Shown piece by piece: positions 53,209-56,477 of a stretch of 64,000 bases of DNA. This DNA is from Paramecium tetraurelia. Lineage: Eukaryota; Ciliophora; Oligohymenophorea; Peniculida; Parameciidae. Made by a program: the position numbers and the translations under genes. How positions within the stretch are numbered: position 1 is the stretch's first letter; each line of letters opens with the position of its first letter. Location: assembly GCF_000165425.1 (NCBI RefSeq), contig NW_001799631.1, positions 155,422-219,421 of the forward strand, read 5' to 3'. Under the pieces are notes generated by a model that saw only the letters and a list, made by a program, of their open reading frames with translations, had not been told where the DNA came from and ran no database searches.

Positions 53209-55834
53209 TCATAAATCATCTCTTTTATCATCACTTACAGTTTCCCATTTTGCGTCATCTGTATTTACTTTTTCCCATTTAGTTCCATCTTAATCGATGT
53301 GTGGTTCAGATGATGCCTCAGGTTCCTCTTCGATTTCAACTTCGAATTCCTTAATTGGTGCATCTCTGTCAATACCCAAGGCTGAATTGAATAATTTATA
53401 GAATCTACTAGCAAACTTTTCTGGACTTGGGATTGAATAGCCTAGATTACAATCAATGAAATAAATTACCTGAATTGACCAAAGCAGCCTCATAGAGAAC
53501 TTTAGCCATTTCTTCAGTTTCCTAATCAGGATCATCTTTAACTCTCTGTAACAATTCTTATATGGCTTAATGATTTGGATTGATTTCAACAATCTTCTTA
53601 CCAAATTGCTAAGAATTGCTTCCCTTGCTTGAATAAGCCTAAGCCTTTGATATTCTTTCCATATTAGCTGAATATCCTGATTCTGAGGAAACAACAATGA
53701 TGGGATCCTCAATCAATCTTTATGAAATGACGACTGAATCAACGTTTTCTGATAATAACTTTCTCCACCAGTCAGTCAAGGGTTAGAACACTTTCTTCAA
53801 AGCCTTTTATTTCTTTCTTTGTTCATCATTATCTTCTGGTTATTTGAAGTCACCTTTGCCAACATTAGTGAGTTTCTTTTGTTTATATTCATTCAAGTGT
53901 TAGAATGTGAATTCATCAACTGGATCTTCTAACAATAAGACTTCATATCCTTTCTTGATTAAGCCTTGAATGATTGGAGATGACAACAATTATTCCTTAT
54001 TTTCACCTGCCAAATAATAGATAGAGTCTTATCCTGGTTTTGATCTTTCAATATAGTCATCAAATGAAGTTAATTCAGTTGCATTCTTGCTTGAATACCA
54101 CCTAAAATAAAATATTAGGTATAATATTTAATATATGGATAATGTTGGATTAGAAATATGTTATGTTAGATCAGACGACTGTTTATATGATCACTTAATA
54201 AATAGAAATAATTCCATTTATTATCCATATTAATTTGTCATCATTGCATAACATACTTCATATAATAGTAATAATAATAATGATACCTTGTTAATTCAGC
54301 CAATTTCTATCTGTTTGATGAATCTTCAATGACACCCAATTTGATATTTTTTCCATACTCTTTCCAGAATTCATTGTATTCATCGATCTTCTTCTTTCTC
54401 TTCTCATCCTTCAATCTTTATTATTCTTCTGGAGTAGTTTCAGCCATGTTATCATCCTCTTCACCTTCTTCAGTATCTTCCTCATCTTCATCATCATATG
54501 AGGCAGCATCTTAGAATAATTCCAAGATCTTCTTAACAATCTTTCTACTGATGACCTTCAACATCTTAAGTTATTGAAGTGTTTCTCTATTGACATTTAA
54601 GGGTAATTCATCAGAATCAATAACACCTTTAACAAAACTTAAATATCTTGGAAGAATATCTTCGAATTCTTCACTGATCAAAACTCTTCTGACATACAAT
54701 TTCAAGTTTGTAGTTTATTTTCCATAATAATTATCGAACATATCACTGGGTGCTCTCTTTGGAACATAAATAAGAGATGTGAATTCAACTTCACCTTCAG
54801 CTTTGAAATGAACCCAGTTGAATGGATCTTCACCTGAATTTTTAGACAAGACTTTATAGAATTTCTTATAATCATCATCTGATATCTCTTCCTTTGGTCT
54901 CAACCAAATAGCTTTGTTTTCATTTACTTACACCCACTCAGACACCTTCTCTTTAATTGTTTTAGTTGCCTTTTTCTTTGTATCTGCATCATCATCATCA
55001 TCATCTTTAACTTTGACTTCATCATCATCAGTTTAATCCTATTGATCTTATTGATCTTATTATTATTCTGATTCCTCCTCTACTTACTTTGAAACTTCTC
55101 TTGTCACCTTCAAGTAAATTGGGAAATTGATAAATTCAGAGTACTTTTTGATCAACTCTCTAATTGTAGATTCTTCAGCAAATTCTACTGCATCTTATTT
55201 CAAATGAATAGTGACTTAAGTACCACGACCCAAAAGTGTTTCCTCTTGGATCTTTAGATACAGCAAATGAATGAGCTGCTTGAGATTCCCAAATGTATTA
55301 ATCATCATCTGAGTTCTTTGATGCAACAGTAACCTTCTGTCCTGCCAAGAAGCATGAATAGAAACCAACACCAAATTGACCAATCAAATTTACATTTCCA
55401 CCTTTGATTGCCTCGATGAATTGAGTTGTTCCTGATTTTGCTATTGTACCCAAATTGGAAATTAGGTCATTCTTAGTCATACCAATACCACTGTCTGTTA
55501 CTGAAACTGACTTCTCTTCTGTATTTATTTCAATTCTTATTGCTAATTCTGTCTTGTCTCCCAAAATCTCTGGATTTCTAACACTTAAGAAACGAAGTTT
55601 ATCAAGGGCATCGGCAGCATTTGAGATTAATTCTCTAAGAAAGATTTCCTTTTGAGTATAGAGAGAATTGATAAGAATGTCCATCAATCTACCTGTTTCA
55701 GCTTAGAATTCATGGGTTTCTTAGGATTGTTCTAATAACTTTTTTTATTCATCAGTCAAATCCTATGTCATCACTTATACTCCTGAGAGCATAAAGAGCA
55801 ACAGCAAGGCAAAGGCCTTCTATTTACTATTCAT
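53209..55834 (-). CDS. ER Hsp90 (endoplasmin/GRP94)
   Basis: About 800 residues. Signal peptide [20 protein letters not shown], then the GHKL ATPase: [23 protein letters not shown] and [11 protein letters not shown]. An acidic linker rich in D and Q separates it from the middle domain, and the protein ends with KRDDL, a KDEL-like ER retrieval signal. It folds secretory proteins in the ER. Two introns: 28 nt near 53445 and an exceptionally long one, 54102-54286 (185 nt), that appears to host a snoRNA. A one-base slip at 55232-55235 (A4 on the plus strand where A3 is expected) breaks the frame between GNT and LGRGT. Confidence 0.95.
54158..54254 (-). ncRNA. intronic box C/D snoRNA candidate
   Basis: Inside the 185-nt intron of the Hsp90 gene, same strand. 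It contains a perfect C box ATGATGA (54238-54244) and D box CTGA (54171-54174). They are bracketed by a perfect 8-bp terminal stem: ATGTTATG at 54247-54254 pairs with CATAACAT at 54158-54165. An imperfect internal C-like box (GTGATCA) lies between. The segment just before the D box, TATAAACAGTCGT, would be the guide. The intron is several times longer than any other in the window, which the RNA would explain. Confidence 0.65.
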
Positions 55835-56477
55835 TAAAAATATTTATTGATTTGCATTCACCATACCTTAAATAATATATATCCAAAAACACGTGTGTTA
55901 TCACACTTTCTAGAAATTAATTAAAAAAAACTCCTTTTTATATACATTTTCAAATCCATACAAATATTCCTGGTCATTCCCTTTGAATTGAACCAAAATT
56001 ATTCAATCTTTTATCAAATGTAAGCATTTCTTCACTTTAATTGTCTTAATTAAAAGGAATTTCTTAAATAAAATTAATTAATTCTCATAATATGTAATTT
56101 GGAAAAAAAAAAATGTGCTCATAAATTACTAAATACAATTAAGTGTGATATCCCAATCAATTTTAAAGATTGGAATTGTAACAAATAGTTGTCATATAAT
56201 TACATAGAATATTCATTATATATATATAATAACTATATCAAAATCTTGTTAATTTACGTATCATTTCTGTTTGCCCTATATTCTTATTTGTCTAATTAAC
56301 TATTAAGTTATTTTATGTTTTTCATAAAATTAATTGTTTAATTTAGAAATTAATTTACTACAAAATTCTATTATTTCTATAATATATCTAAATATATATA
56401 TACTTTAGCATAATAGAATTCAAAAAAATTGTGAATAAATCATAAAAAAGAAAGAAAATGTTTTAATAATAAAATAG
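55835..56477. other. intergenic upstream of Hsp90 and vWA genes
   Basis: 643 bases between divergent genes, mostly A/T, with A-runs and T-runs. No ORF or RNA apart from the sites noted separately. Confidence 0.55.
55890..55915. promoter_or_regulatory. possible heat-shock and ACGTG-core elements upstream of ER Hsp90
   Basis: CACGTG lies at 55890-55895 and TTCTAGAA (two inverted heat-shock half-sites, TTCnnGAA) at 55908-55915, 55-82 bp upstream of the Hsp90 start. Both are plausible binding sites for stress regulators, but short motifs occur by chance and their use in ciliates is not established. Confidence 0.35.

Follow-up and report, generated by a model that had tools for sequence, protein, structure and literature searches.

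Introns of Paramecium are among the shortest known, and a 185-nt intron in a Paramecium tetraurelia gene for an Hsp90 of the endoplasmic reticulum (ER) type raises the question of why it is so long. We analysed this intron within a 64,000-nt stretch of contig NW_001799631.1 (the window; GC content 29%), which belongs to a genome of 69 Mb in 231 contigs and is read in the ciliate code. The 185-nt intron very probably encodes one box C/D snoRNA, judging from its boxes, terminal stem, guide and distribution among gene copies.

A long intron in an ER-type Hsp90 gene

The host gene gives a Pfam HSP90 match of 642 bits, and endoplasmins are the top three solved relatives of its product. Judged by eye, the N-terminus is signal-peptide-like and the C-terminus reads KRDDL. 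This end (window about 53209-53230) is possibly a variant of the KDEL ER-retention signal. Reading the frame by eye, we found two introns in the gene, of 28 nt and 185 nt (Table 1). Predicted splicing of the longer one joins ACA AG to G TGG and restores the frame; frame and splice join together bear out the initial annotation, which had placed a 185-nt intron at this position in an ER Hsp90 gene.

At about window position 55240, exon 1 carries one extra T (ACTTTTGGG) relative to two further copies of the gene, on contigs C124 and C152, and the frame is shifted. Two more distant copies, on C53 and C61, are also in frame at this site (by eye). The extra T is probably an assembly slip in the window's contig.

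Table 1. Host gene, introns and elements of the candidate snoRNA (window coordinates)
Feature	Position	Strand	Basis
Hsp90 host gene, ER-type (GRP94/endoplasmin-like)	53209..55834	-	ciliate-code translations, Pfam, structure relatives
Second host-gene intron, 28 nt, ordinary size	53442..53469	-	reading frame
Long host-gene intron, 185 nt, phase 2, GTATC...TTTTAG	54102..54286	-	reading frame and predicted splice join
Predicted box C/D snoRNA including terminal stem	54157..54255	-	boxes, stem, fold
Terminal stem, 5' arm TATGTTATG	54247..54255	-	fold and stem scan
C box ATGATGA	54238..54244	-	fits RUGAUGA; unchanged in ohnolog C152
Internal hairpin, C box to guide, 12 bp in minimum-energy fold	54196..54223	-	folding
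C'-like GTGATCA, 6/7 to RTGATGA	54188..54194	-	weak, by eye
Predicted guide TAAACAGTCG, one nt 5' of D box, pairing with CGACTGTTTA of LSU rRNA	54176..54185	-	rRNA scan
D box CTGA, ending 69 nt short of the 3' splice site	54171..54174	-	sequence
Terminal stem, 3' arm CATAACATA	54157..54165	-	fold and stem scan

Parts and fold of the candidate snoRNA

On the gene's strand, the elements follow one another as 5' arm, C box, internal hairpin, C'-like GTGATCA, guide, D box and 3' arm. The ATGATGA and CTGA boxes reported for this intron are both present at the positions given in Table 1. The perfect stem said to flank them is there as well, with a length of 9 bp rather than the 8 bp first given, and the fold extends it to 13 bp including a G-U. 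Its offsets from the two boxes, 2 and 5 nt, count against a snoRNA. No convincing D' box was seen by eye in the candidate, and the mature RNA probably ends a few nucleotides beyond the boxes. The whole-intron fold has a z-score of -2.44, with 5 of 200 shuffles folding equally well.

A second inverted repeat, of 11 bp, links the RNA to downstream intron sequence. Such a repeat would suit an insert that acts in cis, for example by joining the splice sites or regulating Hsp90 splicing through hairpins, but repeats of at least 11 bp arose in 97 of 1,000 shuffles and are not unusual, and we rejected the repeat as a meaningful feature on this count. A cis role also leaves the boxes and the guide unexplained, and we regard it as very unlikely.

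Boxes and stem compared with chance

An intron that is merely long and AT-rich might contain boxes and a stem by chance, and patterns of C box followed by D box are indeed common genome-wide when the stem is disregarded (1333 + 1298 places, against 283 + 277 for the reversed pattern). The pattern that we tested consisted of RTGATGA, then CTGA, with a perfect stem lying no more than 6 nt from the boxes. Among 20,000 dinucleotide-shuffled introns, none combined both boxes with a stem of at least 8 bp, while one did so with at least 7 bp and three with at least 6 bp. Within the real window, boxes with a stem of at least 8 bp occur at the site of the candidate only, compared with 0.05 occurrences per shuffled window (20 shuffles). 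We also scanned 52 of 63 loci from the same genome (201,023 nt; the loci overlap and some cover the snoRNA locus itself), leaving aside L001-L011, which had been picked by the C/D pattern or the intron. All ten matches were the candidate snoRNA or its copies on C124 and C152. With the flanking stem absent from every shuffle at 8 bp or more, and with the guide match described below, coincidence is highly improbable. The combination of boxes, terminal stem, strand and position supports an intronic box C/D snoRNA, which it fits far beyond chance.

Predicted guide pairing with LSU rRNA

We compared the predicted guide with ten rRNAs, seven eukaryotic LSUs and three SSUs, all from records labelled prokaryotic. 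In six of the seven LSUs it pairs in D-box register at GA[C]TGTTTAA, over 9 bp in three and 10 bp in three; this Watson-Crick pairing was seen in LSUs of organisms other than the host. The string GACTGTTTA, which the initial annotation had tentatively assigned to LSU rRNA and proposed as a possible partner of the guide, proved to be present in 6/7 eukaryotic LSUs, the seventh (L060) having GACTGTATA instead. This count leaves out L053 (without Rfam check), L051 (an LSU fragment shorter than 190 nt) and seven archaeal loci. The sequences of L056, L061 and L066 are truncated, at one end or at both. With L051 added, GACTGTTTA occurs in seven and CGACTGTTTA in four of eight Rfam-confirmed eukaryotic LSUs, L060 being without. 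L053 has ATCTGTTTA; this LSU is eukaryote-like and strongly diverged, and its record carries the label Proteobacteria.

When the letters of the 15-nt guide were shuffled (n = 3,000), 253 shuffled guides reached at least 10 bp somewhere in the ten rRNAs, so the length of the pairing alone is not telling. Only 5 of the 3,000 matched at least six of the ten rRNAs with at least 9 bp. Only the recurrence of the predicted guide match at one conserved place is unusual.

The host's own rDNA gave no match in the assembly, either by a conserved LSU pattern or by the LSU DNA of L062, the latter search being one without a positive control. Conserved LSU strings searched in viral and genome collections returned only LSUs of other organisms, and one further search returned none. 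Across the genome, the guide with at most two mismatches occurs at 37 places, against 43 for its reversed control. Among the 18 of these 37 places that we inspected (L033-L050), a C box in the 130 nt upstream was seen at L033 alone, which is the candidate locus; L031 and L032 correspond to the copies on C124 and C152, which are identical.

Rfam searches and their controls

No Rfam family matches the candidate at its gathering score. The sole match at E values up to 10 (54080-54310) is to sR11 (RF01150), which we take to be an archaeal C/D RNA family, at 13.4 bits and E 2.9. With a cut-off of 39 bits, membership of that family was rejected. The alignment takes in both the C and D boxes as well as the AACAGUCG that precedes the latter. 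Its score means nothing in itself, because sR11 also matches 15 other places in the genome at 12.5-17.3 bits (69 of 25,233 candidates scored) and gives below-cut-off matches in 6 of 14 control genomes. What does carry meaning is the shared guide. In two of seven archaeal loci, the consensus guide of sR11 forms a 9-bp pairing that addresses the same C, with one further 8-bp match elsewhere. We take this as a predicted target shared by sR11 and the candidate, not as proof of common descent.

As a control, SNORD14 was searched and gave three matches in the genome. Those on C213 and C227 score 31-33 bits against a cut-off of 64, are near-identical and have ATGATGA and CTGA boxes, while the third (28 bits) is without CTGA. 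Below the cut-off, this search also matches in 6/14 control genomes. The two near-identical loci, L080 (C213:106891-106969) and L081 (C227:231283-231361), are likely to be a pair of U14 snoRNA genes. Since this likely U14 pair also misses its cut-off, the absence of an Rfam match for the candidate is not decisive.

Placing the predicted methylated base

Counted five positions from the D box, methylation is predicted to fall on the C of GA[C]UGUUUA. Modification sites of human and plants were taken from the full table of PMC11542601, which gives human sites only where they are conserved in plants, and those of yeast from the available part of PMC5344495. We placed the numbering through yeast Cm2197. 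If this base is the marked C of TGCC[C]AGTG, 16 of 16 numbering constraints fit in L056. The same place, to within one nucleotide, is also the best in L053, L055, L060, L061 and L066 (11-13 of 16), and it is not the best in L062 (where a group I intron intervenes), L064, the fragment L051 and the archaeal L052. The predicted C lies 65 nt upstream of the Cm2197 base in L051, L062 and L066 and 72 nt upstream in L056, the spacing being 48-72 nt over the 15 sequences, out of 16, that allowed a measurement. Because of the 65-nt distance, the predicted C should be yeast C2132 and Arabidopsis C2133, provided that their spacing is 65 nt as well. In agreement with this, yeast m1A2142 and Arabidopsis Gm2125 and Am2127 coincide with the expected letters when that spacing is applied (by eye). 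Yeast Cm2197, the target of snR76, had been our first guess for the site and was rejected by the numbering, the site lying elsewhere.

Ribose methylation at the predicted C is absent from the Arabidopsis and plant lists and from the portion of the yeast list available to us. This absence would suit a genuine box C/D snoRNA with a different target (another rRNA site, an snRNA or none, as an orphan) or with a role in folding or processing. So would the missing rRNA of the host, the second 10-bp place in register in L062, the 10-bp pairings reached by shuffled guides and, from the accessible text of PMC6315972, a Tetrahymena C/D snoRNA with long 26S complementarity whose predicted base is unmethylated. 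Against such a role stands the exact-register pairing to a conserved stretch in six of seven eukaryotic LSUs, common to the sR11 guide. On balance, a different target or role seems unlikely, though it deserves serious weight, and LSU methylation at GA[C]UGUUUA is the most likely job of the RNA, a reading that we favour with some confidence.

Gene copies and intron length

By DNA search, the intron sequence matches three places in the genome, and no further genomic copies were found beyond the matched places (simple repeats skipped). C124 is redundant with the window's contig (C212), the two being 99.93% identical with differences in gaps only. C152 carries an ohnolog, 96.5% identical over the Hsp90 stretch (window 53619-56099) and 83-84% in the flanks, a pattern that looks like homogenisation of the gene (gene conversion) or else like strong constraint. 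C152 lacks about 3.5 kb between the Hsp90 stretch and the neighbouring stretches. The C152 intron has four changes in 185 nt, none of them in the boxes, the guide or the 9-bp stem. Two lie at the loop end of the internal hairpin; the other two form one outer pair, in which the change of G-U to A-C breaks the pairing instead of compensating. Comparison of the C152 and window introns accordingly yields no covariation support, the one pair changed on both sides being broken. Conservation in C152 is weak evidence, because the ohnolog gene looks homogenised.

C53 and C61 encode the same protein, but their intron at this site measures 25 nt and is without the insert; the homologous intron of C118 likewise measures 25 nt (lengths by eye). 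C118 is redundant with C61 (99.6%). Both C124 and C118 are short contigs, near-identical to parts of C212 and C61, respectively. Similarity between C53 and C61 is about 91% in the stretch where they match best. DNA matches between C53 and the window are collinear on either side of the Hsp90 gene, and C61 shows DNA matches on one side and protein-level matches on the other. We interpret the window/C152 and C53/C61 copies as the outcome of one older duplication, each branch of which now holds a recent pair. The insert would have been gained or lost in one branch, either order of the two states fitting these copies.

Conservation, as a check on the candidate within the ohnologs of one genome, gives a divided answer: boxes, guide and stem are kept in one pair and are absent from the other pair. 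The proposal that the intron owes its length to the RNA inside it gains support, since the syntenic ohnologs without the snoRNA-like insert have a 25-nt intron.

An insert present in one ohnolog pair and missing from the other would also be expected if the extra 160 nt or so were not an RNA gene but an internal eliminated sequence (IES) that had been retained, or some other inserted element. TAYAGY is an IES-like end motif. Neither intron strand has a TAYAGY end, the insert is kept in both recent ohnologs and the DNA search, which skips simple repeats, found no further copy, and we consider such an element extremely improbable.

Proposed mechanism and its meaning

From the intron, its boxes and stem, the guide match to eukaryotic LSUs, and the occurrence of a copy in one ohnolog pair but not in the other, all directly observed, we infer transcription, processing, protein binding, a target and methylation. 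The Hsp90 pre-mRNA would be spliced, and trimming of the intron piece between the paired ends would leave an RNA about 80-97 nt long. Standard C/D proteins, including the methyltransferase fibrillarin, would then bind it; the guide before the D box would pair over 9-10 bp with GACUGUUUA of LSU rRNA, so placing a methyl group on the ribose of the C that lies five positions from this box.

A wider and doubtful reading, to which we give limited credence, is that the RNA guides an LSU cytidine unmarked in yeast and Arabidopsis yet addressed by sR11, a site kept in ciliates from the archaeal era or reinvented, and that gain or loss of the snoRNA in one branch of the duplication amounted to growth of a 25-nt intron to 185 nt around an RNA gene, or to the reverse shrinkage. 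If true, the host intron would directly display such growth or its reverse. The candidate supplies a predicted, testable guide-target pair for ciliate ribosomes at a position absent from the plant lists and from the part of the yeast list seen. The contrast of presence and absence between duplicated genes bears on how a snoRNA relates to intron size.

Comparison with known systems

sR11 and the candidate have in common the C box, the D box and the guide core AACAGUCG-N-CUGA in the same register. They differ in that the sR11 model has 57 positions, the internal hairpin of the candidate being an insertion in it, and we do not claim homology. Literature text searches returned nothing useful on the guide letters or on the targets of sR11, and a term search of the archaeal paper PMC7994747, in the part available, did not find the predicted LSU site.

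The likely U14 pair in this genome comprises C/D snoRNAs too, with C and D boxes identical to those of the candidate; the guides differ, and by eye there is no sequence kinship between SNORD14/U14 and the candidate. Like the candidate, snR76/HBII-180, which we equate with SNORD88, is a C/D guide for a cytidine in the same LSU stretch. The snR76 site TGCC[C]AGTG, by contrast, lies 65 nt downstream in the three LSUs with that spacing, and its guide is different. Tables in PMC2653536 and PMC2780460 give the pairing of snR76/HBII-180 as yeast Cm2197 and human Cm3701.

The closest parallel is with intronic snoRNAs of P. tetraurelia itself. According to PMC5485702, about 98% of the introns in this species are 20-30 nt long, annotation v2 has 720 introns longer than 40 nt among 94,711, and a handful of larger introns of ~80 nt contain snoRNAs, for which Chen et al. 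2009 is cited; PMC6735861 mentions 142 annotated snoRNAs. As in those published cases, the candidate is a snoRNA inside an enlarged intron. Its intron is much longer, at 185 nt compared with about 80 nt, a difference that counts against the snoRNA reading. The kind is already known, and the candidate RNA may already be annotated or stand on published snoRNA lists.
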